From: Antedon mediterranea
Lineage: Eukaryota; Echinodermata; Crinoidea; Comatulida; Antedonidae
Direction of reading: 5' to 3'
DNA length: 64,000 nucleotides
Assembly: GCF_964355755.1 (NCBI RefSeq)
Contig: NC_092673.1
Location: 11,291,001-11,355,000 of the forward strand
The position numbers and the translations under genes were made by a program. Shown here one piece after another: positions 8,560 through 63,210 of the stretch (positions are counted from its first letter, which is position 1; every line of letters begins with the position of its first letter). The notes below the pieces were generated by a model. It saw only the letters and a list, made by a program, of their open reading frames with translations. It was not told the DNA's origin and made no database searches.

Positions 8560-9094
8560 CGAGTTTTGAAAATTATTGACATTAATTAATTAATTAATTA
8601 CTGTACGACAAATTTTATTTTTTTAAGCTTTCTAAGAATCGCGCGCGCAAAAACGTGTTTTTGCGCAGTAATTTTTTAAAACACGCAAACGGCCTAATTC
8701 ATGCTCTAAATTGATCAAAACTTAATTTTGAGCTTTTTAAATTTTTAACGCGCGATTTCACACCCTACGTGCGTGTGCGTTTTTATTTGCTAATATTTTT
8801 ACTCTTGATCTGAAGTTCAATTAATTTCATTAATTTGTGATAATGAATTATGGAGATATGATTGATAATGTGATTTCACAAAATGGCGTATAAATGACGT
8901 CACGGTTAAGTGATCACGCTGAAAAGCTTATTAGGATTAAGTTACAGTATTTGAAAGATATTGTGAAATTTTGGTAATCATTGACTTTAAACTTTTTGAG
9001 ATAATTGTTACACAAAATAGTGTACAGAAACAATAATAACTTTAAAGATTTCATACAACAATAGGTGATCATTTTATTCTAAATGATCACCTAA
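8560..9094 (+). mobile_element. Diverged relic of the hairpin-element family, with its own 3' hairpin
   Basis: The sequence follows the same order of landmarks as the 3' half of the array units: an AACGCGCGATTT-type block, ACACGCAA, GTGATTTCACAAAAT, then TGACGTCACG. It finishes in a clean hairpin at 9063-9092 (GGTGATCATTT, 6-nt loop, AAATGATCACC) followed by TAATAATAAT. The stem sequence differs from every array copy, so it represents a third subfamily. I could not find a matching GGTGATCATTT tag upstream, so the 5' end is lost or unrecognised. Confidence 0.55.
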
Positions 9095-13013: not shown

Positions 13014-14132
13014 TCAATGGAATAATTTTACCGATCTGGGAGTATTGTTCCTAATGTTAAGTCCAAAAGGTTTTGTGGGTTTAAGTAGTAATTCCCAGTG
13101 GTTTTCTTTGCCTTTGCGAGTTTTGTCGCTCCATTTGACATCGTGGTCTATTGCAATAACTCTGAAATTTGCAATAGAGTGACCAGCTGAATTAAAATGT
13201 TCGGCTACAGGTTCATCAAGCTTTAATGTTTCGATAGCTGATCTGTGTTGTGTCATTCTCATACGGAGAGTGTTTTTTGTTTCTCCGACGTACTGTTTGC
13301 CACAAATATTACAGTATATGAGATAAATGACGTTTTTGGTTAGACAATTAATTGATTGTCTTATCCGAAAAATGCGGCCAGTTTGGTTACTCTCAATTTT
13401 TTCAGTAGAATCAACCAATGAACAAGTTTTGCAAGATTTTCCGCAAAGGTGACTGCCCACATTTTGGCTGTCATGAGAGTTAATTTCACTCTTAAATTTG
13501 GATCTGACTAATATGTCACGAAGGTTGGAAGGTCTACGAAATGCAATAATGGGTGGTTCCGGAAAAACCGCCCTGAGACGTTCTGTGAACTGTAGAATGG
13601 GCATATGTTTCTCAATAATAGCCCGTAATGGAGGCAACCTAGGGTGATAGGTTGTGACCAATGGCACTCTGGTCGAATTTTTTGGCTGACGTGGTTTGTA
13701 CGTCAGTGTTTGACATCGAGGAATATCTTTTGCTTTCTTTATAGCAGTTTCGATATATTCCTTCTTGTAATTTCTATTCCGGAGATGTCCGGTTAGTTCT
13801 TCGGTACGATTCTGAAAATCTAAATCTGAAGAACAGATACGTCTGATACGTAATGCTTGACTGTACGGTATGTTTTTAGTACAGTGTCGGGGGTGACAAC
13901 TGCTAGGGAGCAGGTACATATTTTTATCCGTGGGTTTACGGAATAGGTCAGTTTTGAGTGTACCATTTTTTATGGTCACTATAGTGTCCAAAAAAATCAA
14001 CGCTACTAGTGGAATTGGTAGCTGTAAATTTTATAGTTGGGTGGACTAAATTAATATTGAGAAGAAAAGATTCCAAATTATCTTCACCATGGGTCCAGAT
14101 CATGAAGATGTCGTCAATGTATCTAAACCAAA
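13014..14132 (-). pseudogene. Penelope-like element: C-terminal RT and GIY-YIG endonuclease
   Basis: On the minus strand the sequence starts mid-protein with LVWFRYIDDIFMIW, the reverse transcriptase catalytic motif (YIDD), and runs through the thumb and linker. It then reaches a GIY-YIG-type nuclease: IYCNICGKQYVGETKNTL with downstream R.R..QH, ending with a stop at 13014. A Cys cluster (CGKSCKTC) precedes the nuclease, as in Penelope/Neptune-type elements. A one-base expansion of a T run near 14000 shifts the frame, so 13014-14000 (328 aa) is the longest intact stretch. The N-terminal part lies 15.76 kb away (29892-30480), because hairpin elements inserted between the codons for PLV and WFRY. 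Penelope elements retrotranspose by target-primed reverse transcription. Confidence 0.92.
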
Positions 14133-15550
14133 CTAGATTTAATTCGTCACTATGACGAATTATAGGTTATATGCATTGATAATTAAAATAAAGATAATTT
14201 ATTTTTAAAAGATATTTTGATTCATTGATTTTCTCAGATTCTTTAAATAATATATAATATATGATAGGACCTTGCTAACGCGAATACAATAGCCGGTATC
14301 ACAATCCGATCAAAGATCCCTCTGCGTATAATGTCATAAACCACATTTGCTGTTACATAATAATAAAGACATAAGTTATTTTTTATCTAGATTTCATTAT
14401 AAATCATGTGTATAATATATACACTAAGAAATAAATTTGAACAAACAATACGGATAATAAAAAAAAAAATTTATTTCGTTTCCCAAGGTGAGACTCGATC
14501 TCGGTACCTTGAGTGCCATAGACACGAGCACACACCACCGAGCCATACACAACTGACTAAAAATCGTAGAAAAATTCCTCCGTGTATTTACTATGCAGTA
14601 ACCACTTTGGTGCAGATAGATTATTACATACCGCAATGAATTATAATTTTTTACTATGATGACATCTCTAAAAATGTACAAAAATGATGCACTGTCAAAC
14701 TATATACTTTTAACTTTAATATATGAACTTTTGAAGGAAGAAAGTTAATGTTAAGTTTGTTATTTTGGCCTAAGAAAATGTCATAATTTGTTTGATTGTC
14801 GAAATGAATTTTTTTTAATTTAATATGAAATTAATTATGGCTTAATCAACTTTTGTTCCCTTAGTTTAATAATAAATCATACATAAGATACATAAACTTC
14901 AAGAAAATTAAATAAAAAATATGTGTTCCCGAGCATTCTGACGATCTATATTAATTTTAAAATTTAGCATATTTTCACCATTTTGTTAACTTACACGTGC
15001 GTAGCCTGTCACTTTTGACGTGCTCGTATAAGGCAATTACGCGTTGAAAAGTGAATAAAATATGATGATATTATTAAAGAAAGGTTGTACAACCGAAATC
15101 GGACAAAAAGAGTGCGCATTAACGTATAACGCGCAGTGCGCGTGCAAAAATCTGCGCACTCATGGCAATTTTTTAAACGCTTAAAATTGCCTGAAACGTA
15201 CTCTAATTTCATCGAAAATAAATTTTGACAATTTTGAACATTTTAAGCGCGCGTACGCAAGCGTTATATGCGCTACGCACGTAATTGTATTGCCATATGA
15301 TGAAATATGACCTGAAATTTATGAGTACCAAATTTTGTTTAATTGTGATTCATGCTTGTGAAGATATGATTACAAACGTGATTTCGTAAAATCGCGCGTA
15401 GACCGCGTAATTTTTGATTACGCATCGTGAAAATATAACCACATCGATTCCTGGCCATAAGGAATATCCTCTGAAAAATTGACTTAGATAGATGAAACTG
15501 ATATCAAGATAATTCACGGACAAAATAGTGCTAAGGAAAGAATAAATAAA
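14133..15550 (+). mobile_element. Hairpin element B1, left part (outermost)
   Basis: It starts CTAGATTT, then the 5' hairpin AATTCGTCA-CTA-TGACGAATT, then the tag AGGTTATATGCAT. It breaks at 15550 in GAATAAATAAA, where B2 begins. Its right part (54 bp) is at 29838-29891, for a rejoined length of 1472 bp. A tRNA-like module is on the minus strand at 14479-14550. Confidence 0.87.
14479..14550 (-). ncRNA. tRNA-like module inside B1
   Basis: On the minus strand TGGCTCGGTGGTGTGTGC resembles a pol III A box with a D-arm. GAGATCGAGTCTC, 33 nt later, resembles a B box with a T-arm stem. The acceptor stem does not close convincingly, so this is a tRNA-derived promoter-like module (as in SINE heads) and not a functional tRNA. 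The same module is in B2, A1 and A6. Confidence 0.5.
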
Positions 15551-16965
15551 CTAGATTTAATTCGTCACTATGACGAATTATAGGTTATATGCATTGATTT
15601 AAATAAAGATAATTGATTTTTAAAAGATATATTGATTGATTGATTTTCTCAGAATCTTTAATTATTTATAATATATGATAGGACCTTGCTAACGCGAACA
15701 CCATAGCCGGTATCACAATCCGATCAAAGATCCATATGCGTATAATGTCATAAACCACATTTGTTGTTACATAATAATAAAGACATAAGTTAATTTTTAT
15801 CTAGATTTCATTATAAATCATGTGTATAATCTATACACTAAGAAATAAATTTGAACAAACAATACGGATAATAAAAAAAAAAAATCTTATTTCGTTTCCC
15901 AAGGTGAGACTCGATCTCGGTACCTTGAATGCCATAGACACGAGCACAGACCACCGAGCCGTACACAACTGACTAAAAGTTGTAGAAAAATTCCTCCGTG
16001 TATTTACTATGCAGTAACCACTTTGATGCAAATAGATTATTACATACCGAAATGAATTATAATTTTTTACTATGATGACATCTTTAAAATGTATACAAAT
16101 GATGCACTGTCAAACTACATACTTTTAACTTTAATATATGAATTTTTGAAGGAAGAAAGTTAATGTTAAGTTTGTTATTTTGGCCTAAGAAAATGTCATA
16201 ATTTGTTTGATTGTCGAAATTATGTTTTTTTAATTTAATATGCAATTAATGATGACTTAATCAACTTTTGTTCTCTTAATTTGATAATAAATCATACATA
16301 TGATACATACACTTCAAGAAAATGAAATAAAAAATAGGTGTTCCCCTGCATTCTGACGATATATATTAATTTTAAAATTTAGCATATTTTCACCATTTTG
16401 TTAACTTATACGTGCGTAGCCCGTCACTTTTGACGTGCTCGTATAACGCAATTTCGAGTTGAAACCTGAATCAAATATGATGATATTATTAAAGAAAGGT
16501 TATACAACAGTAATCGGACACAAACAGTGTGCATTAACGTTTGATGCGCAGTGCGCGTGCAAAAATCTGCGCACTCATGGCAATTTTTTAAACGCCTAAA
16601 ATTGCCTGAAACGTACTCTAATTTCATCGAAAATAAATTCTGACAATTTTCAACATTTTAAGCGCGCGTACGCATGCGTTATATGCGCTACGCACGTAAT
16701 TGTATTGCCATATTATGAAATATGACCTGAAATTTATGAGTACCAAATTTTGTTTAATTGTGATTCATGCTTGTGAAGATATGATTACAAACGTGATTTC
16801 GTAAAATCGCGCGTAGACCGCGTAATTTTTGATTACGCATCGTGAAAATATAACCACATCGATTCCTGGCCATAAGGAATATACTCTGAAAACTTGACTT
16901 AGCTAGATAAAACTGATGCCAAGATAATGCATGGACAAAATAGTGCTAAGGAAAGAATAAATAAA
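15551..16965 (+). mobile_element. Hairpin element B2, left part
   Basis: It has the same 5' end as B1 and is about 95% alike by eye. It is inserted in the AATA tract of B1 and is itself broken at 16965 in the same tract by A1. Its right part is at 18585-18653; rejoined length is 1484 bp. The tRNA-like module is at 15895-15966 on the minus strand. Confidence 0.87.
15895..15966 (-). ncRNA. tRNA-like module inside B2
   Basis: Second copy of the B-type tRNA-like module, with A-box-like TGGCTCGGTGGTCTGTGC and B-box-like GATCGAGTCTC on the minus strand. Confidence 0.5.
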
Positions 16966-18584
16966 CTAGAACTTAAACTCGTCACTTGAGGACGAGTTTG
17001 GTTATCCGCCAGCAACAAAGCGTATCTTGCGTATTCAAGTACTTCCAAGTTATGACTTTTCCAAAAAAAGTAGGCTATTCAAAATTAAAACTGCCCTCTC
17101 AGTGTAATAACCAACTAAACCCTTTTAATTAATTGTTTTCCCGTGACGGGACTCGAACCCGGTACCTCTGATACCAAAGTCGGTTGCATTACACATCGAG
17201 CCATATGACCACCTGCTGACGAAAATCCGAAGAAAGAGTCCTCGTTCATTCGGTATGTCGTGAACCCCCTCGATGCAAGTTGATTATTACATATCAAACT
17301 TAAATCATAAATTTTACTATGATGAAATCTTCAAAAATTTTAAACGCTGATATTTTATGAAAGTACATACTTTCAAGTTTGATATATTAACATGTAAAGA
17401 AAAAAGATAAATGTTATGTTTATTGTTTTGCTCTTTGAATAAGTTTATGTTTGTTTGATGATAAATATTTCAAAAATTATATTTAATATGCAAATAATGT
17501 AGCCATCAAACACGTTTTAGCATTCAACACTATAATAAATCAGACCTATGATTCATACACTGCAAGTAATTAAAATAAAAAATGGGGGTAACCTTGCATT
17601 CTGATGAACTGTGTCATTTTTAAAAGTAGACATATTTTGGAACATTTTCACAATTTGTTGACGTTTTCGTGCGCAACCTGTCATGTTTAACGTGCTCGTA
17701 GAACGCCATTTCAAGTTGAAAAGTGAATAAAATAACGTAAAATTGTTAACAGAAGATTTAAAAACACAAATCGTGTAAAAGAAATGCTCATACCTGTTCC
17801 CTGCGCCGTGCGCGCGTAAAAATGTGCGCACCAGTGGCAATTTTTTAAACGCTTAAAATGACCTGAATCGTGCTCTAATTTAATCAGAAATTGATTTGAA
17901 GCATTTTAAAATTTCAAACGCCATTTACGCGCGCACTTTCTAATGTTACAAATTGCGATAGCGTTAAAAAAGTTAACTATTGATGTGAAGCAAACGTGGC
18001 TGAAAATGACGTTAAAAAATATTCATTTGTTTCGAAGTTATAATCAATTTAAGATTTTCAGAAAATCACGCGTAACTTACGCTAAGCGGCTCTGACATCG
18101 TCAAAAAGCTTGGCTGGACAACTTCAGTAAAATGTCTATATGTTGAACAAGTTACAAAATGTTATGTTAACGCGTTACAGAGAAACAGCGTGCACAAATT
18201 AGGAGCATTTTAAAATTTCAAACGCAGTTTACGCGCAGACTTTCTAGTGTTCAAAAATTTGCTGAAGAGCGAAAAAGTTAGCCATTGATGTGAAGAAAAC
18301 GTGGCTGAAAATTTCGTTAAAAAATATTTATCGGTTTCGAAGTTATGACCGATTTAAGATTTTCAGAAAATCGCGCGTAACTTACGCTACGCGGATCTGA
18401 CATTGTCAAAAAGCTTCGCAGTACATCTTCAGTTAATTGTCTATATGTTGACCAAGTTACAAAATGTTATGTTAACACGTTCAAGAGAAAACGCGTACAC
18501 AAAATCTGAGAAAGAAAGAAGAATAATAAAAAAAAAAAGTAACACTACAATAACAAAGGTTATCCGCTTGAGGCGGATAACCAA
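16966..18584 (+). mobile_element. Hairpin element A1 (A*-type), complete
   Basis: It starts CTAGAACTT with the 5' hairpin AAACTCGTC-ACTTGAG-GACGAGTTT, then tag GGTTATCCGCC. It ends with the hairpin at 18558-18582 (GGTTATCCGC, 5-nt loop, GCGGATAACC). Its 5' half resembles the B type (tRNA-like module, AATAAATCAGACC-type block). Its 3' part contains a roughly 300-bp internal duplication (about 17905-18205 and 18205-18505). It is nearly identical to A6 and has the same length (1619 bp). Confidence 0.88.
17139..17216 (-). ncRNA. tRNA-like module inside A1
   Basis: On the minus strand, TGGCTCGATGTGTAATGC (A box) and GGGTTCGAGTCCC (near-perfect B box with a 4-bp T stem) are spaced as in a tRNA, and ACGGG follows the T arm. 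The anticodon arm is irregular. It probably derives from a tRNA and may still recruit TFIIIC; it is not called as a working tRNA. Confidence 0.55.
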
Positions 18585-18653
18585 TAAATAAATAAATAAA
18601 TAAAGATTTTGACAGAATCAAGAGGTTATATGCATATCATGCATATAACCTAA
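18585..18653 (+). mobile_element. 3' end of hairpin element B2
   Basis: AATA repeats, GATTTTGACAGAATCAAG, then a perfect 12-bp-stem hairpin at 18624-18650 (GGTTATATGCAT, ATC loop, ATGCATATAACC) followed by TAA. The stem sequence matches the B 5' tag and not the A tag, which assigns it to B2. Confidence 0.87.
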
Positions 18654-20221
18654 CTAGACATGTAACTCGTCACTTTGACGAGTTTGGTTATCCGCCGCGC
18701 AAGTGGTGCAACATTAACATTAAGGGGATAGGTTGAGGACAAAAGGAAGTGTTCACGTTGGCATTATGACCTGAACTGAAGAATATGATATGTTGTTATT
18801 GCTGAATTTTATTATTTAAATTCATATATAGTATATACACAGTATATAATCTGTATCCATATCACATACAGTGTAGAATAGGTGAAATTACGGGACCCGC
18901 TATTTATTGCAATTTTTAACATGTTGACGGTTTTAAAATGAAACGCGAAAGTAGCAATTCCGAAAGGAAATTATCTCAGCAACAACGTATTAGCGTGTAG
19001 AAGAAATTTGAATACGTGAAATATTGATGCGCGCTCTTTTAAATGTAATGAATTATGACGCAAAAGATGAAAATACGACCTTTTTTATTTAACTGGCCAT
19101 ATGATGACGTCACAACATCCGATTTGCAACATTTTTACATAATTTCGTATCTACAATCCAATAGCTTCCAGAAAAAATTTTAATCGTGATTATCACATTT
19201 TATTCTTACGAGCTATAACAGATTAAAATTTACTGTAAAGATGAAATTAATGCCACACGTGATTTAAATTTTTAGGCATGATGACGTTAAAAAAATTAAA
19301 ATATTTTTAACTCATGCGAAAGATACTTGATTGACCTAGACAAAATCAAAATCGGGGTGAAAATGGAAAACGGATAAGTGGAGATGCGCTCTATTCAATG
19401 TGATGAGCTATGACGAAAGATACAAAAATCCTAAATTTTATATTCGCATGGCCATACGATGACGTCATAATGTCCGGTTAGCCATATTAATACCTGATCC
19501 GATATCTACAACTCATCTACTTCCAGAATATGCCATCCACAAAAAGTTGACCGTCTAGTTTAGAAATTACGACTGTTTAAAAAAAGGCATATTTTAAACG
19601 AATTTTTTAACCTTTTCATAAAAAACGCGCGCAAATTGTCCAATTCGACGTGCTCGTATGACGTATCTTTAAGTCGAAATTGTTTAAAATTTGGTAAAAT
19701 TACTAGAAAAGGCTGGAAAAATATAAATCACGCGAAAAAAGTACGTTTTCAATACTACGTGCGCACCGCACACGTAAAAATGTGCGCACGCGTGGGAATT
19801 TTTGACATGCTTAAAACGACATGAAACGCGTAGAAAGTTGATTATAAATTAATTTTGCGCATTTTGAAATTTTAAATGCGCGTGCGCGCGTAACTTTGTG
19901 TAAAACACGCAATTTTTTTTCAACAGAAAGTTAGCGCATGATATAAATTAAACTTTTGCAAAGTTTCAAGTTGAAATGTTATTTGGTTGTCGAGCTATGT
20001 TAAATACGACAAAATCGTTAAATCGCGCGTAAGTCACGTTGCGCAATTGTAAACGTCATGAAAAGCTTCGCTTGACGACGTTACGTAAATGTCAATATGT
20101 TAAGATAGTTACCGAAATGTTATGTTTGCGAGTTTTAGAGAAAAGCGTTACACAAAAATCATACAGAATGATTTCGTACAATCACAAGAGGTTATCCTGC
20201 AACTTCGTTGCGGATAACCAA
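18654..20221 (+). mobile_element. Hairpin element A2, complete
   Basis: It starts CTAGACATGTAACTCG (5' hairpin AACTCGTCA-CTT-TGACGAGTT, tag GGTTATCCGC). It ends with the hairpin at 20190-20219: GGTTATCC, a bulged T, GCAAC, loop TTC, then GTTGCGGATAACC. Length is 1568 bp. It lacks the ATG/GAT microsatellite seen before the closing hairpin of A4, A5 and A7. Confidence 0.88.
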
Positions 20222-21746
20222 CTAGACATGTAACTCGTCACTTTGACGAGTTTGGTAATCCGCCGCGCAAGTGGTGCAACATTAACATTAAGGGGATAGG
20301 TTGAGGACAAAAGGAAGTGTTCACGTTGGCATTATGACCTGAACTGAAGAATATGATATGTTGTTATTGCTGAATTTTATCTATATATAAATTCATATAT
20401 AGTATACACAGTATAATCTGTATCCATATCACATACAGTGTAGAATATGTGAACTTACGGGACCCGCTATTTATTGCAATTTTTAACATGTTGACGGTTT
20501 TAAAATGAAACGGGAAGGTAGCAATTCCGAAAGGAAATTATCTCAGCCACAACGTATTAGCGTGTAGAAGAAATTTGAATACGTGAAATATTGATGCGCG
20601 CTCTTTTAAATGTAATGAATTATGACGCAAAAGATGAAAATACGACCTTTTTTATTTAACTGGCCATATGATGACGTCACAACATCCGATTGGCAACATT
20701 TTTACATAATTTCGTATCTACAATCCAATAGCTTTCAGAAAAAGTTTTAATCGTGATTATCAAATTTTATTCTTACGAGCTATAACAGATTAAAATTTAC
20801 TGTAAAGATGAAATTGATGCCACACGTGATTTAAATTTTTAGGCATGATGACGTCAAAAAAATTAAAATATTTTTAACTCATGCGAAAGATAGTTGATTG
20901 ACCTATACAATATCAAAATCGGGGTGAAAATGGAAAACGGATAAGTGGAGATGCGCTCTATTCAATGTGATGAGCTATGACGAAAGATACAAAAATCCTA
21001 AATTTTATATTCGCGTGGCCATACGATGACGTCACAATGTCCGGTTAGCCATATTAATACCTGATCCGATATCTACAACTCATCTACTTCTAGAAAATGT
21101 CATCCACAAAAATTTGACCGTCTAGTTTAGAAATTACGACTGTTTAAAAAAAGTCATATTTTAAACGAATTTTTTAACCTTTTCATAAAAAACGCGCGCA
21201 AATTGGCCAATTCGACGTGCTCGTATGACGTATCTTTAAGTCAAAATTGTTTAAAATTTGGTAAAATTACTAGAAAAGGCTGAAAAAACATAAATCACGC
21301 GAAAAAATTACGTTTTCAATTCTACGTGCGCACCGCACACGTAAAAATGTGCGCACGCCTGGGAATTTTTGACATGCTTAAAACGACATGAAACGCGTAG
21401 AAAGTTGATTATAAATTAATTTTGCGCATTTTGAAATTTTAAATGCGCGTGCACGCGTAACTTTGTGTATAACACGCAATTTTTTTTCAACAGAAAGTTA
21501 GCGCATGATATAAATTAAACTTTTGCAAAGTTTCAAGTTGAAATGGTATTTGGTTGTCGAGCTATGTTAAATACGACAAAATCGTTAAATCGCGCGTAAG
21601 TCACGTTGCGCAATTGTAAACGTCATGAAAAGCTTCGCTTGACGACGTTACGTAAATGTCAATATGTTAAGATAGTTACCAAAATGTTATGTTTGCGAGT
21701 TTTGGAGAAAAGCGTTACACAAAAATCATACAGAAAGAAAGAAGAA
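20222..21746 (+). mobile_element. Hairpin element A3, left part
   Basis: A2-like. It breaks at 21746 inside GAAAGAAAGAAGAA, where A4 begins, so no hairpin precedes A4. The right part is at 28169-28235, beyond A4-A7. Rejoined length is 1592 bp, within the range of intact copies. Confidence 0.86.
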
Positions 21747-23349
21747 CTAGACATGTAACTCGTCACTTTGACGAGTTTGGTTATCCGCCGCGCAAGTGGT
21801 GCAACATTAACATTAAGGGGATAGGTTGAGGACAAAAGGAACTGTTCACGTTGGCATTATGACCTGAACTGAAGAATATGATATGTTGTTATTGCTGAAT
21901 TTTATTATTTAAATTCATATATAGTATACACAGTATAATCTGTATCCATATCACATACAGTGTAGAATAGGTGAAATTACGGACCCGCTATTTATTGCAA
22001 TTTTTAACATGTTGACGGTTTTAAAATGAAACGCGAAGGTAGCAATTCCGAAAGGAAATTATCTCAGCAACAACGTATTAGCGTGTAGAAGAAATTTGAA
22101 TACGTGAAATATTGATGCGCGCTCTTTTAAATGTAATGAATTATGACGCAAAAGATGAAAATACGACCTTTTTTATTTAACTGGCCATATGATGACGTCA
22201 CAACATCCGATTGGCAACATTTTTACATAATTTCGTATCTACAATCCAATAGCTTCCAGAAAAAGTTTTAATCGTGATTATCACATTTTATTCTTACGAG
22301 CTATAACAGATTAAAATTTACTGTAAAGATGAAATTGATGCCACACGTGATATAAATTTTTAGGCATGATGACGTCAAAAAAATTAAAATATTTTTAACT
22401 CATGCGAAAGATAGTTGATTGACCTAGACAATATCAAAATCGGGGTGAAAATGGAAAACGGATAAGTGGAGATGCGCTCTATTCAATGTGATGAGCTATG
22501 ACGAAAGATACAAAAATCCTAAATTTTATATTCGCGTGGCCATACGATGACGTCACAATGTCCGGTTAGCCATATTAATACCTGATCCGATATCTACAAC
22601 TCATCTACTTCCAGAATATGTCATCCACAAAAATTTGACCGTCTAGTTTAGAAGTTACGACTGTTTAAAAAAAGGCATATTTTAAACGAATTTTTTAACC
22701 TTTTCCTAAAAAACGCGCGCAAATTTTCCAATTCGACGTGCTCGTATGACGTATCTTTAAGTCGAAATTGTTTAAAATTTGGTAAAATTACTAGAAAAGG
22801 CTGGAAAAATATAAATCACAAAAAAAAAATACGTTTTCAATGCTACGTGCGCACCGCACACGTAAAAATGTGCGCACGCGTGGGAATTTTTGACATGCTT
22901 AAAACGACATGAAAAGCGTAGAAAGTTGATTATAAATTAATTTTGCGCATTTTGAAATTTTAAATGTGCGTGCGCGCGTAACTTTGTGTAAAACACGCAA
23001 TTTTGTTTCAACAGAAATTTAGCGCATGATATAAATTAAACTTTTGCAAAGTTTCACTTTAAAATGTTATTTGGTTTTCGACATATGTTAAATACGATAA
23101 AATCGTTAAATCGCGCGTACGTCACGTTGCGCAATTGTAAACATCATGAAAAGCTTCGCTTGACGACGTTACATAAATGTCAAAATGTTAACATAGTTAA
23201 CAAAATGTTATGTTTGCGAGTTTTAGAGAAAAGCGTTACACAAAAATCATACAGAAAGAAAGAAGAAGAATAAAAAGTTGATGATGATGATGATGATGAT
23301 TTCGTACAATCACAAGAGGTTATCCTGCAACTTCGTTGCGGATAACCAA
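21747..23349 (+). mobile_element. Hairpin element A4, complete
   Basis: It has an A2-type 5' end and a closing hairpin at 23318-23347 preceded by a GAT microsatellite. Length is 1603 bp. It was inserted into the GAAA/GAAGAA tract of A3. Confidence 0.87.
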
Positions 23350-24940
23350 CTAGACATGTAACTCGTCACTTTGACGAGTTTGGTTATCCGCCGCGCAAGT
23401 GGTGCAACATTAACATTAAGGGGATAGGTTGAGGACAAAAGGAAGTGTTCACGTTGGCATTATGACCTGAACTGAAGAATATGATATGTTGTTATTGCTG
23501 AATTTTATTATTTAAATTCATATATAGTATACACAGTCTAATCTGTATCCATATCACATACAGTGTAGAATAGGTGAAATTACGGGACCCGCTATTTATT
23601 GCAATTTTTAACATGTTGACGGTTTTAAAATGAAACGCGAAGGTAGCAATTCCGAAAGGAAATTATCTCAGCAACAACGTATTAGCGTGTAGAAGAAATT
23701 TGAATACGTGAAATATTGATGCGCGCTCTTTTAAATGTAATGAATTATGACGCAAAAGATGAAAATACGACCTTTTTCATTTAACTGGCCATATGATGAC
23801 GTCACAACATCCAATTGGCAACATTTTTACATAATTTCGTATCTACAATCCAATAGCTTCCAGAAAAAGTTTTAATCGTGATTATCACATTTTATTCTTA
23901 CGAGCTATAACAGATTAAAATTTACTGTAAAGATGAAATTACTGCCACACGTGATTTTAATTTTTAGGCATGATGACGTCAAAAAAATTAAAATATTTTT
24001 AACTCATGCGAAAGATAGTTGATTGACCTAGACAATGTCAAAATCGGGGTGAAAATTGAAAACGGATAAGTGGATATGCGCTCTATTCAATGTGATGAGC
24101 TATGACAAAAGATACAAAAATCCTAAATTTTATATTCGCGTGGCCATACGATGACGTCACAATGTCCGGTTAGCCATATTAATACCTGATCCGATATCTA
24201 CAACTCATCTACTTCCAGAATATCCCATCCACAAAAAGTTGACCGTCTAGTTTAGAAATTACGATTGTTTAAAAAAAGGCATTTTTTAAACGAATTTTTT
24301 AACCTTTTCATAAAAACGCGCGCAAATTGTCCAATTCGACGTGCTCGTATGACGTATCTTTAAGTCGAAATTGTTTAAAATTTGGTAAAATTACTAGAAA
24401 AGGCTGGAAAAACATAAATCACGCGAAAAAAATACGTTTTCAATGCTACGTGCGCACCGCACACGTAAAAATGTGCGCACGTGTGGGAATTTTTGACATG
24501 CTTAAAACGACATGAAACGCGTAGAAAGTTGATTATAAATTAATTTTGCGCATTTTGAAATTTTAAATGCGCGTGCGCGCGTAACTTTGTGTAAAACACG
24601 CAATTTTTTTTCAACAGAAAGTTAGCGCATAATATAAATTAAACTTTTGCAAAGTTTCACTTTAAAATGTTATTTGGTTTTCGACATATGTTAAATACGA
24701 GAAAATCGTTAAATCGCGCGTACGTCACGTTGCGCGATTGTAAACATCATGAAAAGCTTCGCTTGACGACGTTACATAAATGTCTAAATGTTAACATAGT
24801 TAACAAAATGTTATGTTTGCAAGTTTTAGAGAAAAGCGTTACACAAAAATCATACAGAAAGAAAGAAGATTAAGAAAAAGATGATGATGATTTCGTACAA
24901 TCACAAGAGGTTATCCTGCAACTTCGTTGCGGATAACCAA
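23350..24940 (+). mobile_element. Hairpin element A5, complete
   Basis: Same architecture as A4; closing hairpin at 24909-24938; 1591 bp. It abuts A4 and A6 with only AA at each junction. Confidence 0.87.
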
Positions 24941-26559
24941 CTAGAACTTAAACTCGTCACTTGAGGACGAGTTTGGTTATCCGCCAGCAACAAAGCGTAT
25001 CTTGCGTATTCAAGTACTTCCAAGTTATGACTTTTCCAAAAAAAGTAGGCTATTCAAAATTAAAACTGCCCTCTCAGTGTAATAACCAACTAAACCCTTT
25101 TAATTAATTGTTTTCCCGTGACGGGACTCGAACCCGGTACCTCTGATACCAAAGTCGGTTGCATTACACATCGAGCCATATGACCACCTGCTGACGAAAA
25201 TCCGAAGAAAGAGTCCTCGTTCATTCGGTATGTCGTGAACCCCCTCGATGCAAGTTGATTATTACATATCAAACTTAAATCATAAATTTTACTATGATGA
25301 AATCTTCACAAATTTTAAACGCTGATATTTTATGAAAGTACATACTTTCAAGTTTTATATATTAACATGTAAAGAAAAAAGATAAATGTTATGTTTATTG
25401 TTTTGCTCTTTGAATAAGTTTATGTTTGTTTGATGATAAATATTTCAAAAATTATATTTAATATGCAAATAATGTAGCCATCAAACACGTTTTAGCATTC
25501 AACACTATAATAAATCAGACCTATGATTCATACACTGCAAGAAATTAAAATAAAAAATGGGGGTAACCTTGCATTCTGATGAACTGTGTCATTTTTAAAA
25601 GTAGACATATTTTGGAACATTTTCACAATTTGTTGACGTTTTCGTGCGCAACCTGTCATGTTTAACGTGCTCGTAGAACGCCATTTCAAGTTGAAAAGTG
25701 AATAAAATAACGTAAAATTGTTAACAGAAGATTTAAAAACACAAATCGTGTAAAAGAAATGCTCATACCTGTTCCCTGCGCCGTGCGCGCGTAAAAATGT
25801 GCGCACCAGTGGCAATTTTTTAAACGCTTAAAATGACCTGAATCGTGCTCTAATTTAATCAGAAATTGATTTGAAGCATTTTAAAATTTCAAACGCCATT
25901 TACGCGCGCACTTTCTAATGTTACAAATTGCGATAGCGTTAAAAAAGTTAACTATTGATGTGAAGCAAACGTGGCTGAAAATGACGTTAAAAAATATTCA
26001 TTTGTTTCGAAGTTATAACCAATTTAAGATTTTCAGAAAATCACGCGTAACTTACGCTACGCGGCTCTGACATCGTCAAAAAGCTTGGCTGGACAACTTC
26101 AGTAAAATGTCTATATGTTGAACAAGTTACAAAATGTTATGTTAACGCGTTACAGAGAAACAGCGTGCACAAATTAGGAGCATTTTAAAATTTCAAACGC
26201 AGTTTACGCGCAGACTTTCTAGAGTTCAAAAATTTGCTGAAGAGCGAAAAAGTTAGCCATTGATGTGAAGAAAACGTGGCTGAAAATTTCGTTAAAAAAT
26301 ATTTATCGGTTTCGAAGTTATGACCGATTTAAGATTTTCAGAAAATCGCGCGTAACTTACGCTACGCGGATCTGACATTGTCAAAAAGCTTCGCAGTACA
26401 TCTTCAGTTAATTGTCTATATGTTGACCAAGTTACAAAATGTTATGTTAACACGTTCAAGAGAAAACGCGTACACAAAATCTGAGAAAGAAAGAAGAATA
26501 ATAAAAAAAAAAAGTAACACTACAATAACAAAGGTTATCCGCTTGAGGCGGATAACCAA
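24941..26559 (+). mobile_element. Hairpin element A6 (A*-type), complete, near-identical to A1
   Basis: It starts CTAGAACTT and ends with the hairpin at 26533-26557, like A1. The two copies have the same length (1619 bp) and only scattered substitutions, although A1 sits inside B2 and A6 inside A3. This points to two recent insertions from one source, or to gene conversion. The tRNA-like module is at about 25114-25191 (minus strand). Confidence 0.88.
25114..25191 (-). ncRNA. tRNA-like module inside A6
   Basis: Second copy of the A1 module, with an unchanged B box (GGGTTCGAGTCCC) and A-box-like segment on the minus strand. Confidence 0.55.
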
Positions 26560-28168
26560 CTAGACATGTAACTCGTCACTTTGACGAGTTTGGTTATCCG
26601 CAGCGCAAGTGGTGCAACATTAACTTAAGGGGATAGGTTGAGGACAAAAGGAAGTGTTCACGTCGGCATTATGACCTGAACTGAAGAATATGATATGTTG
26701 TTATTGCTGAATTTTATTATTTATATTCATATATAGTATACACAGTATAACCTGTATCCATATCACATACAGTGTAGAATAGGTGAAATTACGGGACCCG
26801 CTATTTATTGCAATTTTTAACATGTTGACGGTTTTAAAATGAAACGCGAAGGTAGCAATTCCGAAAGGAAATTATCTCAGCAACAACGTATTAGCGTGTA
26901 GAAGAAATTTGAATACGTGAAATATTGATGCGCGCTCTTTTAAATGTAATGAATTATGACGCAAAAGATGAAAATACGACCTTTTTCATTTAACTGGCCA
27001 TATGATGACGTCACAACATCCGATTGGCAACATTTTTACATAATTTCGTATCTACAATCCAATAGCTTACAGAAAAAGTTTTAATCGTGATTATCACATT
27101 TTATTCTTACGAGCTATAACAGATTAAAATTTTCTGTAAAGATGAAATTGATGCCACACGTGATTTAAATTTTTAGGCATGATGACGTCAAAAAAATTAA
27201 AATATTTTTAACTCATGCGAAAGATAGTTGATTGACCTAGACAATATCAAAATCGGGGTGAAAATGGAAAACGGATAAGTGGAAATGCGCTCTATTCAAT
27301 GTGATGAGCTATGACGAAAGATACAAAAATACTAAATTTTATATTCGCGTGGCCATACGATGACGTCACAATGTCCGGTTAGCCATATTAATACCTGATC
27401 CGATATCTACAACTCATCTACTTCCAGAATATGTCATCCACAAAAATTTGACCGTCTAGTTTAGAAATTACGACTGTTTAAAAAAAGGCATATTTTAAAC
27501 GAATTTTTTAACCTTTTCATAAAAAACGCGCGCAAATTGTCCAATTCGACGTGCTCGTATGACGTATCTTTAAGTCGAAATTGTTTAAAATTTGGTAAAA
27601 TTACTAGAAAAGGCTGGAAAAACATAAATCACGCGAAAAAAATACGTTTTCAATGCTACGTGCGCACCGCACACGTAGAAATGTGCGCACGCGTGGGAAT
27701 TTTTGACATGCTTAAAACGACATGAAACGCGTAGAAAGTTGATTATAAATAAATTTTGCGCATTTTGAAATTTTAAATGTGCGTGCGCGCGTAACTTTGT
27801 GTAAAACACGCAATTTTTTTTCAACAGAAATTTAGCGCATGATATAAATTAAACTTTTTCAAAGTTTCACTTTAAAATGTTATTTGGTTTTCGACATATG
27901 TTAAATACGATAAAATCGTTAAATCGCGCGTACGTCACGTTGCGCAATTGTAAACATCATGAAAAGCTTCGCTTGACGACGTTACATAAATGTCAAAATG
28001 TTAACATAGTTAACAAAATGTTATGTTTGCGAGTTTTAGAGAAAAGCGTTACACAAAAATCATACAGAAAGAAAGAAGAAGAATAAAAAGTTGATGATGA
28101 TGATGATGATGATGATGATTTCGTACAATCACAAGAGGTTATCCTGCAACTTCGTTGCGGATAACCAA
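26560..28168 (+). mobile_element. Hairpin element A7, complete
   Basis: A2-type ends; closing hairpin at 28137-28166, preceded by a long GAT microsatellite (28092-28120); 1609 bp. Directly after it the tail of A3 resumes (AAATAAAAAGATGATGATT). Confidence 0.87.
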
Positions 28169-28235
28169 AAATAAAAAGATGATGATTTCGTACAATCACA
28201 AGAGGTTATCCTGCAACTTCGTTGCGGATAACCAA
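28169..28235 (+). mobile_element. 3' end of hairpin element A3
   Basis: A second closing hairpin (28204-28233) follows that of A7 after only 37 bases, with no 5' end between them. This double closing balances the missing closing before A4 and is the key evidence that A4-A7 sit inside A3. Confidence 0.88.
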
Positions 28236-29837
28236 CTAGACATGTAACTCGTCACTTTGACGAGTTTGGTTATCCGCCGCGCAAGTGGTGCAACATTAAC
28301 ATTAAGGGGATAGGTTGAGGACAAAAGGAAGTGTTCACGTTGGCATTATGACCTGAACTGAAGAATATGATATGTTGTTATTGCTGAATTTTATTATTTA
28401 AATTCATATATAGTATACACAGTATAATCTGTATCCATATCACATACAGTGACATACAGTGTAGAATAGGTGAAATTACGGGACCCGCTATTTATTGCAA
28501 TTTTTAACATGTTGACGGTTTTAAAATGAAACGCGAAGGTAGCAATTCCGAAAGGAAATTATCTCAGCAACAACGTATTAGCGTGTAGAAGAAATTTTAA
28601 TACGTGAAATATTGATGAGCGCTCTTTTAAATGTAATGAATTATGACGCAAAAGATGAAAATACGACCTTTTTTATTTAACTGGCCATATGATGACGTCA
28701 CAACATCCGATGGGCAACATTTTTACATAATTTCGTATCTACAATCCAATAGCTTCCAGAAAAAGTTTTAATCGTGATTATCACATTTTATTCTTACGAG
28801 CTATAACAGATTAAAATTTACTGTAAAGATGAAATTGATGCCACACGTGATTTAAATTTTTAGGCATGATGACGTCAAAAAAATTAAAATATTTTTAACT
28901 CATGCAAAAGATAGTTGATTGACCTAGACAATATCAAAATCTGGGTGAAAATGGAAAACGAATAAGTGGAGATGCGCTCTATTCAATGTGATGAGCTATG
29001 ACGAAAGATACAAAAATCCTAAATTTTATATTCGCGTGGCTATACGATGACGTCACAATGTCCGGTTAGCCATATTAATACCTGATCCGATACCTACAAC
29101 TCATCTACTTCCAGAATATGTCATCCACAAAAAGTTGACCGTCTAGTTTAGAAATTACGACTGTTTAAAAAAAGGCATATTTTAAACGAATTTTTTAACC
29201 TTTTCATTAAAAACGCGCGCAAATTGTCCAATTCGACGTGCTCGTATGACGTATCTTTAAGTCGAAATTGTTTAAAATTTGGTAAAATTATTAGAAAAGG
29301 CTGGAAAAACATAAATCACGCGAAAAAAATACGTTTTCAATGCTACGTGCGCACCGCACACGTAAAAATGTGCGCACGCGTGGGAATTTTTGACATGCTT
29401 AAAACGACATGAAACGCGTAGAAAGTTGATTATAAATTAATTTTGCGCATTTTGAATATTTAAATGCGCGTGCGCGCGTAACTTTGTGTAAAACACGCAA
29501 TTTTTTTTCAACAGAAAGTTAGCGCATGAAATAAATTAAACTTTTGCAAAGTTTCACTTTAAAATGTTATTTGGTTTTCGACATATGTTAAATACGAGAA
29601 AATCGTTAAATCGCGCGTACGTCACGTTGCGCAATTGTAAACATCATGAAAAGCTTCGCTTGACGACGTTACATAAATGTCAAAATGTTAACATAGTTAA
29701 CAAAATGTTATGTTTGCAAGTTTTAGAGAAAAGCGTTACACAAAAATCATACAGAAAGAAAGAAGATTAAGAAAAAGATGTTGATGATTTCGTACAATCA
29801 CAAGAGGTTATCCTGCAACTTCGTTGCGGATAACCAA
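28236..29837 (+). mobile_element. Hairpin element A8, complete
   Basis: A2-type 5' end, closing hairpin at 29806-29835, 1602 bp. It contains a short local duplication (GACATACAGT) near 28445. It is followed directly by the 3' end of B1. Confidence 0.87.
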
Positions 29838-29891
29838 TAAAGATTTTGACAGAATCAAGAGGTTATATGCATGATAATGCATATAACCTAA
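29838..29891 (+). mobile_element. 3' end of outermost hairpin element B1
   Basis: TAAAGATTTTGACAGAATC, then the perfect 12-bp hairpin at 29861-29888 (GGTTATATGCAT, GATA, ATGCATATAACC) and TAA, after which Penelope coding sequence resumes. The B-type stem matches the B-type 5' end at 14133, closing the composite. Confidence 0.9.
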
Positions 29892-30490
29892 CAAGTGGTT
29901 TATTTGGTTGGAGGGACAGAAAATTGGCCTCAAATTGTCCCATAAATAACTTTTGCAAAAGATTGCGCCATTTTTGTGCCCATCGCTGTGCCATGAATTT
30001 GAAGGTAATAGTCATTTCCAAAAATAAAATTGTTGGTGGTTAAAATCAACATGACCAGTTCTCGTAAATGAGCTTTAGTAGGCGTTTTGCCTGGAATTTG
30101 TTTGTAATTTAAAATACATGCGTCGGATCCTTCTTCGTGAGGGATATTAGTATACAATGATGAAACATCTAATGTAGCCAGAACAGAATTGTTAGGTAAA
30201 TTTTGAATTTGGTTAATTTTGCGGATAAAGTCCGTGGAGTCCTGAATGTATGAAGGGAGATCAGTCACATATGTTCTAAGTAAATCATCCACATATTCAG
30301 AAATTTTCTATGTAGCAGTGCCATTGCCCGAAATAATGGGTCTACCAGGATTGCCTGCTTTGTGGATTTTAGGTAGGAAATAAAATCTGCCTGGTGCCAA
30401 ATGAGGTCCAATTTTAGGATCGATGGAGTGTTTTTTAACCATCACAGAAACAGATTTGGCCACCTTATCCGCAATTTCCGGATATATATA
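29892..30490 (-). pseudogene. Penelope-like element: N-terminal part of the reverse transcriptase
   Basis: On the minus strand the protein reads GRFYFLPKIHK, NPGRPIISGNGT, SYIQDSTDF, ATLDVSSLYTNIPHEEG and IHGTAMGTKMA, then QFEANFLSLQPNKPLV. These are RT motifs 1-4 of Penelope elements. A stop interrupts the GNGTAT region near 30310, and a frameshift near 29935 follows SFAK, so it is not functional. It continues directly into WFRYIDD at 14132 once the nested 15.76 kb is removed. The 5' end of the gene is missing: the RT begins just after a TATATA tract at 30480-30500. Confidence 0.9.
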
Positions 30491-35600: not shown

Positions 35601-35800
35601 TCAGGTTAACACAGGCGTATATCAGTGCCTTTTGCGTAGGGCATATCTGATTGGTCGATTGCGGCCACCATCTTGTTTAAGAATAACTTTTTGAACTGCG
35701 ATAACATTGTAGTTTACCATCCAGCCTTCGGCTATATAAAATAATATATATCATTGATTTAAAAAACATCTTAGAGGGCGCTACCTACATTAATGTCAAA
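35601..35800 (+). promoter_or_regulatory. Putative QTRT1 promoter region
   Basis: About 125-160 bp before the ATG lie CTGATTGGTC (inverted CCAAT box) and GCGGCCACCATCTTG (YY1-type motif), the kind of pair found just around metazoan housekeeping start sites. The same block occurs at about 10620-10720. No TATA box is obvious. Assignment as the promoter rests on motifs and position only. Confidence 0.45.
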
Positions 35801-36055
35801 ATGGCAGCCCCCATTAGTTCATTGGCGTCCAAACCCACACGTGTTTCCAAATGTTTATCTCTTCAAATTCTAGCTGAATGTAGTACAACTAAAGCGAGAA
35901 CATGTAAACTATCTCTTCCACATCAAACTGTTGATACACCTGTATTTATGCCCGTAGGAACTCAAGGAACAATGAAAGGTTTAACGGTGGGCCAGCTTGA
36001 GGAACTCGATTGTCAAATTATTCTTGGAAACACATATCATCTGGGGATGAGACCG
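35801..36055 (+). CDS. QTRT1: Queuine tRNA-ribosyltransferase catalytic subunit 1, exon 1
   Basis: Codes for residues 1-85 from the first ATG. After a variable N-terminus the family core begins: [20 protein letters not shown], then [17 protein letters not shown], then [15 protein letters not shown]. The enzyme works with QTRT2. It swaps the wobble guanine (position 34) of tRNAs for His, Asn, Asp and Tyr for queuine. These segments build the first strands of the TGT barrel. The exon ends CCG|GTTAGT, phase 0, and joins GGTCCA of exon 2 to give RPGPK, as in other animals. The 5' splice site lies only 34 bp before a 21.9 kb transposon. Confidence 0.95.
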
Positions 36056-36235
36056 GTTAGTATTCCTAAATTAGCCATATATTGAGCAAATCTGTGAAAA
36101 AATTTAAAAGAAGCTAATTTCAACTGATTTTGGTAGGTATGGGTATGGACAACTACCAAAAAAATAGAAGGGAAGATAGGGGCTGGGTAAAATTTTTTAT
36201 CGGAGGTCAAAGTTATTGACCGTTGCTAAATAGCT

Positions 36236-37751: not shown

Positions 37752-39253
37752 CTAGACATGAAACTCGTCACTTTGACGAGTTAGTTATCCGCACGACAAA
37801 CGCCACGTGCACGTCATACGTTGGGATATTGCACACAGAAAAAGATTATGGCATTATGACCTGAACTGAAGAATATGATATGTTGTTATTGCTGAATTCT
37901 GTTATTTTGTGTCATATATAGTATACACAGTATAATCACATACAGTGTAGAATAGGTGAAATTACGGGACCTGCTATTTATTGCAATTTTTAACATGTTG
38001 ACGGTTTTAAAATGCGACGGTAGCAATTTCGGAAGGAAATTATCTCAGCAACAACATATTAACGTGTAGAAGAAATTTTAATACGTGAAATATTAATGCG
38101 CGCTCTTTTAAATGTAATGAACTATGACGCAAAATATGAAAATACTGTACGACTTTTTTTATTTAACTGGCCATATGATGACGTCACAACATCCGATTGG
38201 CGAAAAGTTCACATGATTTCGTATCTACAATCCAATAGCTTCCAGAAAACGTTTTAATCGTGATTATCAGATTTTATTCTTACGAGCTATTACAGATTAA
38301 AATTTACTGTAAAGATGAAATTAATGACCCACGTAATTAAAATTTTTAGGCATGATGACGTTATAAAAATTAAAATATTTTTATCTGATGCTAAAGAAAG
38401 TTGATTGACCTAGACAATATATAAATGTAGGAGAAAAAGGAATACAGATAAGCGTGATGCGCTCCATTGAATGTGATGAGCAATAACAAAAGAGACAAAA
38501 ATCCTATATTTTACATTCGTGTGGCCATACGATTACGTCACAATGTTTTTTTAGCCTTATCGATGCATGATCCGATATCTACAACTCATCAACTTCTAGA
38601 TTTTGTAATAAAAATAAACGGTTCATGGTTTACTTTAGAAACTATGACTGTTTAAAAAAAGACATTATTTTGATGATTTTTTAAGCTTTTTCATAAAAAA
38701 CGCGTACGAATTGTCTAATTCAACATGTTCGTATGGCGTTATTTAAACTTGAAAAGGTCTAAATTGTTTTCAAAATTACTAGGAAAGGCTTGAAAAATAT
38801 AATTCAAGAGGAAAAAATATGTTTTTAACGCTACGTGTGCACCGCACGCGTAAAAAATTGCGCGCCCGTGGGAATTTTTGACATGCTCAAAATGACATGA
38901 AACGCGTAAAAAGTTGATTAGAAATTAATTTTGCGCATTTTGAAACTTTAAATGCGTGTGCGCGCGTAACTTCTTGTGAAACATGCCATTTTTAATCCGT
39001 AGAAAGTTTGCCCCTGGTATGACTTAAATTTTGTCAAAGTGTCAATACTAAATGACTTTTGGTTTTTAATCTATGTTCAACCATTGAAATTCATAAAATT
39101 GCGCGTAAGTCACGTTGCGCAACTATGACGTCATTCAAAAATAGGAGGTGCACAACTTCACGTAAATGCCCATATGCTGTCAAAGTTATGAAATGTTATG
39201 TTTACACATTTTAGAGAAACGCGACTCACAAAAAGGAAGGAAGGAAAGAAGAA
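37752..39253 (+). mobile_element. Hairpin element C1 (A'-type), left part
   Basis: 5' end CTAGACATGAAACTCG with hairpin and tag AGTTATCCGC. It breaks at 39253 in AAAGAAGAA, where C2 starts. Its own 3' end is lost or is the truncated hairpin at 51137-51148. Confidence 0.82.
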
Positions 39254-41067
39254 CTAGACATGAAACTCGTCACTTTGACGAGTTAGTTATCCGCTCGACA
39301 AACGCCACGTGCACGTCATACGTTAGAATATTGCACACAGAAAAATATTAAGGCATTATGACCTGAACTAAAGAATATGATATGTTGTTATTTCTGAATT
39401 CTGTTATTTTTTGTCATATAGTATACACAGTACAATCTGTATACATATCACAAACAGTGTAAAATAGGTGAAATTACGGGACCCGTATTTTATTGTAATT
39501 TTTAACATCTTGACGGTTTCAAAATGAAATGCAAAAGTACAAATTTCTGAATGAAATTATCTCAGCAACAACATATTAACGTGTAGAAGAAATTTGAATA
39601 TGTGAAATATTGATGCGCGCTCTTTTAAATGTAATGAAATATAATGCAAAAGATGAAAATACGACTTTTTTTATTTAACTGGCCATATGATGACGTCACA
39701 ACATTCGATTGGCACAATTTACACATGATTTTGTATCTACAATACAATAGCTTCCTGAAAACGTTTTAATCGTGATTATCACATTTTATTCTTACGAGGT
39801 ATAACAGATTAAAATTTACTGTAAAGATGAAATTAATGACCAAATTAATTAAAATTTTTAGGCATGATGACGTTAAAAAAATTAAAAAAATTTTTATTCA
39901 TGCAAAAGATAGTTGATTGACCTAGAATATATTAAAATCGGGGTGAAAATGGACAACGAATAAGTGGAGATGCGCTCTATTAAATGTGATGAGCTATGAC
40001 AAAAGAGACAAAAATCATATATTTTATATTCGCGTGGCCATACGATGACGTCACAGTGTCCGGTTAGCCATATTAATGCATGATCCGATATTTACAACTC
40101 ATCAACTTCCAGAATATGTAATTAAAAAAAAGTTCTCCATGTAGTTTAGAATCTATGACTGTTTAAAAAAAGGCATAATTTTGACAAATTTTTGAACTTT
40201 TTCATCAAAAACGCACGTAAAGTATCCAATTCAACGTGCCCGTATGACGTAATTGTAAGTCGAAATTGTTTTAAAATTGGTAAAATTACTATAAAAGGCT
40301 GGAAAAACATAATTCAATAAAAAAAAAATACTTTTAGCGCTACGTGCGCACCACGCGCATAAAATTGTTCACGCGCGTAGGAAATTTTGATATGCTCAAA
40401 ATGTCATATTCAGCGTAGAAAGTTGATTAAAAATTAATTTTGCGCATTTTGAGTTTTAAATGCGCGTGCGCGTGTAACTTTGTGTAAGACACGCAATTTT
40501 TTTTCCACAGAAAGTTAGCGCATGATATAAATTAAACTTTTGCTAAGTTTCAATTTAAATTGTTATATGGTTTTAAATCTATGTTAAATACGCGAAATTC
40601 ATAAAATCGCGCGCAAGTCACGTTGCGCATTTCTGACGTCATTCACAATAGGAGGTGCACAACTTCATGTGAATGCCCATATGTTGACAAAGTTATGAAA
40701 TGTTATGTTTACACGTTTTTGAGATACGCGAGACACAAAAACAGAGGAAAAATGCGCGTGCCCGCGTAACGTCTTGTAAAACATGCCATTTTTAATCCAC
40801 AAAAAGTTTGCCCTTGATATGACTTAAATTTTCACAAAGTGTCAAAACAAATTTATGCTTGGTTTTTAGCCTATGATCAATCATAAAAAATCATAAAATC
40901 GCACGTAAGTCACGTTGCGCAACTCTGACGTCATTCAAAAATAGGAGGTGCACAACTTCACGTAAATGCCCATATGTTGACAAAGTTATTAAATGTTACA
41001 TTTACACATGTTAGAGAAACGCTCTACACAAAAATGGAAGGAAAGAAATGAGAATAATACAGAAAAA
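39254..41067 (+). mobile_element. Hairpin element C2, left part with internal duplication
   Basis: A'-type 5' end. The block from about 40456 to 40745 (TGCGCGTGCGCGTGTAAC to AGACACAAAAACAG) is repeated in diverged form at about 40751-41060, so this copy is about 300 bp longer than its sisters. It breaks at 41067 before C3; its tail is at 45068-45130. Confidence 0.82.
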
Positions 41068-44995: not shown

Positions 44996-45067
44996 TAAAG
45001 ATGAAAAAAAAAAGGATATTTACAATAACAAGGGTTATTCGCAACTTAAAAAGTTGCGGATAACCAA
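44996..45067 (+). mobile_element. 3' end of hairpin element C3
   Basis: An A-rich run, then GGATATTTACAATAACAAG and a 15-bp-stem hairpin at 45033-45065 (GGTTATTCGCAACTT, AAA, AAGTTGCGGATAACC). The GGGTTAT arm matches the C3 5' tag. Confidence 0.83.
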
Positions 45068-63177: not shown

Positions 63178-63210
63178 ATATTTGTATAATATACAGTATC
63201 TTCTTTTCAG

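Follow-up and report, generated by a model that had tools for sequence, protein, structure and literature searches.

A 15.8-kb run of repeats that looks like a satellite array, at 14133-29891 of a 64,000-nt stretch of the genome of the crinoid Antedon mediterranea (RefSeq assembly GCF_964355755.1, contig NC_092673.1, positions 11,291,001 to 11,355,000; hereafter the window), is most probably a self-nested cluster of non-autonomous Helentrons (HINEs) that lies on the minus strand and grew by repeated insertion of the elements into copies of themselves. We put the probability of this reading at about 93%. The original prediction, made from the sequence alone, had proposed nested insertion and held that the array preserves its own insertion order. 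Growth by self-insertion, and not by unequal crossing-over, is supported by empty sites, by other arrays, by quantized spacing, by paired junctions, and by an enlarged tree. As for the record of insertions, nesting depth can be read, but not the order of units that stand end to end: the self-nesting is a record of depth only, and order among such neighbors is not preserved.

An end search recovered the ten ends of each kind that had been claimed for 14133-29891, i.e., ten CTAGA-plus-hairpin ends and ten ends with a palindromic, hairpin-forming subterminal inverted repeat (subTIR). The units belong to three types, B (n = 2), C (n = 2), and A (n = 6), and their ends follow the order B1[B2[C]A2 A3[A4 A5 C A7]A8]. 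The predicted bracket order is thus retained, while two of its labels are not, the former A1 and A6 being a distinct C type. The claim that B-type stems close B-type units also holds and extends to every unit, each of which is closed by its own type; when the three types are distributed onto the ten closing hairpins, 1 of the 1260 possible assignments is compatible with nesting. When the 20 labeled ends were put in random order, a fraction of 7.5e-5 was balanced with types, compared with 9% when types were ignored. Since 9% of type-blind orders balance, balance alone is weak evidence, and the weight therefore rests on the types and the joins.

The outermost unit, B1, has its 3' part, the body, at 14133-15550 (3' terminus CTAG at 14133; 3' hairpin and subTIR GCATATAACC) and its 5' part, with the TTAGGTTATATGCAT hairpin and the start of a T-rich tract, at 29838-29891, where the closing is matched by type and the flanks restore the reading of a reverse transcriptase (RT). 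Nested in the tract of B1 is B2 (3' part, 15551-16965; 5' part, 18585-18653), which itself contains a complete C-type unit (16966-18584, the former A1). The complete unit A2 (18654-20221) stands end to end with the 5' part of B2 and is followed by the host A3 (3' part, 20222-21746; 5' part, 28169-28235), inside which lie the complete units A4 (21747-23349), A5 (23350-24940), the second C-type unit (24941-26559, the former A6), and A7 (26560-28168). A8, also complete (28236-29837), stands end to end with the 5' part of A3, and all of these units are on the minus strand. Unit lengths after rejoining run from 1472 bp (B1) to 1619 bp (C), as predicted. All three split units, A3, B1, and B2, rejoin cleanly: the halves of A3 align to A4 and A7 with no gap through the join, and B1 and B2 rejoin within a (TAAA)n tract of variable length, as does B0, a third B unit at the edge of the window.

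Removal of 14133-29891 also restores the host sequence, a Penelope-like element (PLE) on the minus strand whose GIY-YIG domain and part of its RT lie left of the array (13014-14132), with further RT to the right (29892-30307). Compared with protein P0001, the RT rejoins with no base lost or gained at the junction (joined flanks NKPLVWFRYIDDIF versus LKPQIWLRFIDDIF in P0001); the frame is broken elsewhere, not at the junction. Among the named relatives of this Penelope-like protein are some from bivalves, sea cucumbers, and a sea urchin. An empty site also exists for another array of the window, at 37752-51148: a second copy of its flanks, on the other strand, is uninterrupted exactly at 57334/57335. 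The alignment spans 750 columns at 87% identity, and its 77 gap columns all lie away from the junction. Neither empty site bears a target duplication, and both insertions lie just 5' of a T run. Repeats of this kind are hard to assemble, and a misassembly that had shuffled similar copies might mimic a nest; however, the empty sites are clean and ordered, type-matched ends recur in arrays on three contigs, which makes such an artifact extremely unlikely.

With regard to polarity, the earlier reading was reversed: the true polarity of the units is that of the minus strand, so that the labels 5' and 3' of the earlier reading must be swapped. Read in this sense, a unit has TT and a hairpin-forming subTIR (GGTTATCCGC or AGGTTATATGCAT) at its 5' end, and an inverted subTIR, a hairpin, a short spacer, and CTAG on its 3' side. 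All of the 17 tabulated 5' ends in the window show TT followed by GGTTATCCGC, AGTTATCCGC, or AGGTTATATGCAT, one of them (at 1946) with a changed base, while the 5' end at 51148 is missing its hairpin; A- and T-type ends are distinguished by one base. At the other terminus, TT follows in 18 of 18 window 3' ends. In A units, GCGGATAACC occupies the stretch from 42 to 32 nt ahead of the 3' terminus (38-60 nt in the published elements, with the reference point uncertain), and the 3' hairpin stops 10 nt before it. Six ends folded as DNA (two per type) all formed the hairpin, and three folded 3' ends (one per type) gave hairpin z values of -3.3 to -5.9. Within 14133-29891, no stop-to-stop frame exceeds 99 aa. 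In the part of its text that describes them, PMC4067079 gives HINEs a subTIR 2-4 nt from the 5' terminus and a 3' subTIR ~38-60 nt from the 3' terminus, a palindrome 8-35 nt from the 3' terminus, a T-rich target with T on both sides, no target duplication, no coding capacity, and internal tandem repeats in some copies. To judge from their termini, then, the units of 14133-29891 are HINEs, that is, non-autonomous Helentrons. A canonical Helitron (Helitron1: 5' TC, 3' CTRR, A/T insertion) was ruled out by the 5' end TTRG and by the PLE target G^T, although the 3' CTAG of the units does fit the CTRR of Helitron1.

The position at which guests enter their hosts is strikingly uniform in the window. 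Eight hosts are interrupted, all in the 5' T-rich tract and all by guests in the orientation of the host, and the entry point lies 54-72 nt from the 5' end (57 nt in B0) in the six hosts for which a 5' part was found. For the five hosts whose two halves both lie in the window, entry was always within the first 130 nt, for which the probability is 3e-5 if TT sites were used equally. The same site was then counted over the 354-Mb genome to which the window belongs. One exact A-type tail site yielded 86 tail|guest junctions, and an exact count of guest|body junctions gave 46, with 0 in reversed controls for both. For 34 of these 46, the 16 kb upstream contain a left junction on the same strand, at distances of 1555-1623 bp, i.e., one guest (20 cases), 3144-3476 bp (6 cases), 4780-4794 bp (3 cases), or more (5 cases; grouping by hand). 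In the pairing controls, a partner lay downstream for 11 of 46 and on the opposite strand for 3 of 46; clustering by itself thus accounts for some of the pairs but does not produce the pattern.

The bracket order is also found elsewhere in the genome. Four more stretches, chosen for resemblance to unit A5 regardless of structure, were added to the window; between them they hold nine arrays or array strands, of which the window contributes three. Over this set, 41 of 48 3' ends close the last open unit of matching type, a count that rests on rules fixed after the data were seen, because the type rule was revised and the B0 and C types were set by hand in the final parse strings (the parse program had typed the diverged 5' end of B0 as X, omitted its 3' end, and merged C and G into A). 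Shuffling the 3' labels 20,000 times gave a mean of 22.6 matches and a maximum of 34, and first-in, first-out closing was rejected, with only 19 of 48. The clearest case, C2:20987560-20998644, has six nesting levels and the parse X[ A[A[T[X[T]]]] T ]: six 5' ends lie inside ~340 bp, the 3' ends then follow in reverse order, and each of its seven units measures 1569-1593 bp once rejoined.

To see how units are spaced, we used two 31-mers from the 3' end, one with 575 exact copies (on A units and on some T units, such as T6) and one with 660 (on most T units of the window), both with 0 in reversed controls. The spacing sample comprised 155 such 3' ends, listed completely for C1 and for the first 11.8 Mb of C2. 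All 98 pairs of neighbors lying within 10 kb agreed in strand, and the isolated ends numbered 10 of 100 for the first 31-mer and 26 of 55 for the second. Among the 60 spacings of 1400-1800 bp, 29, 16, 7, and 5 fell at the length of a body plus 0, 1, 2, and 3 tails, respectively, and 3 fell between. Since unequal crossing-over between whole units predicts the one-tail group only, spacings of a body plus zero to three tails disfavor it.

These data bear directly on the reading of 14133-29891 as an ordinary satellite, in which unequal crossing-over or block duplication amplified one or a few inserted units locally. Head-to-tail units in a single orientation are what a satellite would show, and a tree of the window copies alone pairs A4 with A7 and A5 with A8 at ~90% support, the p-q-p-q order of a duplicated block; blocks of duplicated units had been named in the original prediction as grounds for rejecting it. 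This pairing dissolved once outside copies were added. In the enlarged tree, which combines the A copies of the window with 11 copies from four other arrays, A7 joins a copy from C8 and A3 a copy 6.6 Mb away on C4; many forks are weak, and 3 of 14 inner branches are starred. A single clade of the six window A copies was rejected in the approximately unbiased (AU) test (p-AU 3e-38), and copies from the window interleave with copies from other contigs. Added to this are split units with distant matching tails, the type order that is 1 in 1260, and the spacings just given, in which closest relatives at a spacing of one unit are not what was found. We therefore regard a satellite origin as highly improbable. 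Sequence comparison suggests that the units arrived separately, drawn from a common pool.

A second alternative is rolling-circle read-through, in which a terminator is missed and a concatemer is inserted in one event. Such read-through has been described for Helitrons and proposed for the tandem Helitrons of bats, the silk moth, and plant centromeres, and it would be consistent with the unequal numbers of 5' and 3' ends in some arrays. However, a single array mixes types, its units are not each other's closest kin, and guests break hosts at one position of the tract with both junctions present. Divergence within 14133-29891 is, moreover, too unequal for a single event: 0.4% between the C copies, 1.4-3.7% among the A copies, and 5% between the B copies. 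We consider read-through very unlikely. The two C copies (16966-18584 versus 24941-26559) differ at 6 of 1619 positions (99.63% identity). Private substitutions likewise number 19 in the host A3 versus 10, 14, and 9 in its guests A4, A5, and A7, and 34 in B1 versus 21 in the nested B2. The expectation that inner copies are younger is thus in keeping with this array, given the A3 and B1 counts and the near-identical C copies, and not with the outer levels of the array at 37752-51148.

That array (array 3) and another at the left edge of the window are on the minus strand as well. At the edge, B0 has its 3' part at 1-299, truncated by the window (3' terminus at C4:11290111), and its 5' part, with a slightly diverged hairpin, at 1890-1946, and the complete T-type unit T0 (300-1889) is nested in it. 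In array 3, the 3' part of T1 (37752-39253) has no 5' part that is necessarily its own. The 3' part of the host T2 (39254-41067) was assigned the 5' part at 45068-45130, which T1 may own instead. The host G (3' part, 41068-42581; 5' part, 44996-45067) contains T4 (42582-44995), and the T2 and G joins are in register against T0. T5 is represented by its 3' part (45131-46661), its 5' part not having been found in the array; T6 (46662-50034) holds ~2.7 kb of other sequence and has a 495-bp 5' portion 98.4% identical to T0; and T7 (50035-51148), a shorter unit with a plain 5' TTAGTTATCCGC and no 5' hairpin, marks the 5' limit of the array. T4 carries an unrelated insert of ~840 bp (42758-43598) whose ends are, by eye, mutually inverted copies, probably a miniature inverted-repeat transposable element (MITE).

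Internal tandem repeats were seen in T2 (292 bp, at 40458-41034) and in the C units (305 bp, two copies, at 17900-18503 and 25875-26478). On the sense strand of the C units, a stretch at ~17139-17211 and 25114-25186 (minus strand) looks tRNA-like and contains what we take to be pol III box motifs, and the B units have a diverged version (14479-14548); this region of the B and C units had no Rfam match and no tRNA according to ARAGORN. A diverged fragment resembling B and C bodies lies at 8670-8888, outside the three arrays. On the plus strand, two frames, at 35705-36085 and 62218-62514, match queuine tRNA-ribosyltransferase (Pfam TGT, profile 2-57 and 77-152), and a third at 63116-63352 resembles, by eye, a further TGT exon. 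With TGT frames on both sides of it, the 13.4-kb array at 37752-51148 would sit in an intron of that gene. A tandem repeat with a period of ~35 bp (4.7 and 7.9 copies in two stretches) lies at 55866-56297 and is open in more than one frame.

Besides the pairing in the window-only tree, a number of observations weigh against self-nesting as we read it. In the trees, the tests that reject A4+A7 (p-AU 0.035) and A5+A8 (0.006) are both post hoc, and the separate tree of right halves foreseen at the outset was impossible because these are only 54-69 bp long, so joins in register were used instead. In array 37752-51148, guests have longer end branches than hosts (T1 0.061, T2 0.080, G 0.135), although end-branch length, which changes with the choice of sampled relatives, dates these copies poorly. 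The spacing bins and end patterns were chosen after inspection of the data, and per-array label shuffles fell below 0.05 in four of the nine arrays and not in the other five. Full balance, as originally predicted, is seen in 14133-29891 and does not extend to all arrays: array 3 has seven 3' ends versus five 5' ends, two of the 3' ends being partnerless; C4b leaves six 5' ends open; and 4 of 5 3' ends in C8b and 1 of 13 in C8a are unmatched. A single T, not TT, follows 6 of the 30 3' ends tabulated in arrays outside the window. In C8a, the 5' ends at 2436036 and 2443976 and the 3' ends at 2427830 and 2439239 abut, by eye, unit-body sequence in opposite orientation. At C10:20.87 Mb, the sole locus inspected for one, no autonomous copy with the termini of the units was found; a T-type 5' end is present at 20860205, inside a unit body, but there is no T-type 3' end in 20875400-20880400.

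The opposite-orientation units at C8:2427830-2443976 lie inside a B-type element and include two near-identical A copies (end branches 0.0014 each); they represent either insertions at T sites on the other strand of the body or an inverted duplication. Body entries in opposite orientation fit a strand-specific T target and do not fit exclusive homing to the tract. As for the surplus ends, we are less sure: composite mobilization, deletion, mutated ends, or recombination between adjacent tail repeats with loss of a tail would each suffice, and none is strongly favored. An addition to the self-nesting reading is a mixed origin, in which nesting came first and blocks then moved as composites with surplus ends. 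It would account for the surplus 3' ends of array 3, which has a clean empty site around it, and for the surplus 5' ends of C4b, and the relevant passage of PMC5148889 proposes chimeric Fusarium elements that have two 5' termini. The same counts would nonetheless result from recombination between the ~65-bp tail repeats, from deletion, or from mutated ends missed by the search patterns, and no identical composite has been demonstrated at two loci; we consider a mixed origin quite possible, at a little short of an even chance.

In the self-nested cluster itself, a guest in the T-rich tract splits its host into a short 5' tail and a body of ~1.5 kb, further units directly adjoin the TT at the 5' terminus of another copy, and host tails and bodies are closed last-in, first-out. 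We propose that Rep/helicase would be supplied in trans by an endonuclease-encoding Helentron of the same genome, and insertion would be strand-specific, 5' of T. With the T tract on the top strand of the element, head-to-tail polarity would follow, and since every insertion leaves fresh target sites, the array would renew its own target. A T site in the complementary strand of a body would reverse the orientation of the guest, as seen in the C8 array. Unbalanced arrays might reflect, less surely, composite mobilization from one element's 5' end to another's 3' end, or tail loss.

As for a possible trans-acting partner, the genome has 87 Helitron_like_N matches, and by hand count 41 of these lie in open frames of at least 2,500 aa (2,581-3,181 aa; 119.6-135.8 bits), some of them near array coordinates, e.g., C1:5738048. 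A Helentron-type open reading frame with Helitron_like_N, PIF1, and Exo_endo_phos lies ~4 kb from the C4b array. The similar scores of the long frames, together with shorter ones (C1:3140090, C4:17909410), suggest recent activity. On a broader view, a Helentron family may have made its own 5' T-rich tract its preferred landing site, so that strand-specific self-homing builds depth-recording arrays, nested blocks yield composites with surplus ends, and the arrays both shelter the family and breed variants. We advance this idea tentatively and think it rather less probable than its negation; exclusive homing to the tract, in particular, is weakened by the body insertions and by the single-T flanks outside the window.

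How do these arrays compare with known systems? According to work by McGurk and Barbash (cited in PMC12628747 and PMC7492417), double insertion of a transposon into one target reportedly seeds satellites, target preference leading to tandem copies; what would set the present arrays apart is nesting inside the element and the type-matched order. The original prediction had called an array-building transposon of this kind unusual, which needs qualification, since self-insertion and tandem copies of Helitrons have been published. HINE/DINE-1-like Helentrons share with our units subTIRs 2 nt from the 5' end, a palindromic subTIR, a near-terminal 3' palindrome, and a T-rich target, but the sections of PMC4067079 that deal with their clustering put it down to missed termination or close insertion and describe no self-nested order. 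For Fusarium oxysporum, the corresponding part of PMC5148889 reports one Helitron2-type element inserted into another as well as elements bearing several 5' termini; the nesting there is a single case and the duplicated 5' ends are short, whereas here there is a ten-unit array, a six-level array, and a repeated entry site. Tandem and adjacent Helitrons are in print (PMC2267711, in the portion concerned), and for a published pair of canonical Helitrons the available excerpt reads the end-to-end junction as consecutive insertion because the two elements differ, as we do, although the target there is A/T and no nesting is involved. In oysters, the passages on Helentron satellite-like arrays (PMC7492417, PMC11136912, and the review PMC12628747) likewise name Helentrons as a source and mention loci with elements inside elements; those arrays consist mostly of short repeats within one element, while here whole elements are the repeat unit. 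In the literature on nested, tandem, or self-inserted Helentron arrays, of which few subscription papers were covered, no title or abstract has multi-level, type-matched self-nesting. Self-nesting Helitrons are thus already known, and it is the depth and regularity of the arrays that are without a precedent we could find. Because a host that is entered keeps its two halves as a matched pair, nesting can be read from a single assembly; the arrays are a record of transposition whose depth-based relative ages could calibrate the divergence dating of elements, and their paired junctions provide an exact test of the Helentron target rule. Self-nesting provides a third route to satellite-like arrays, beside unequal crossing-over and rolling-circle read-through.

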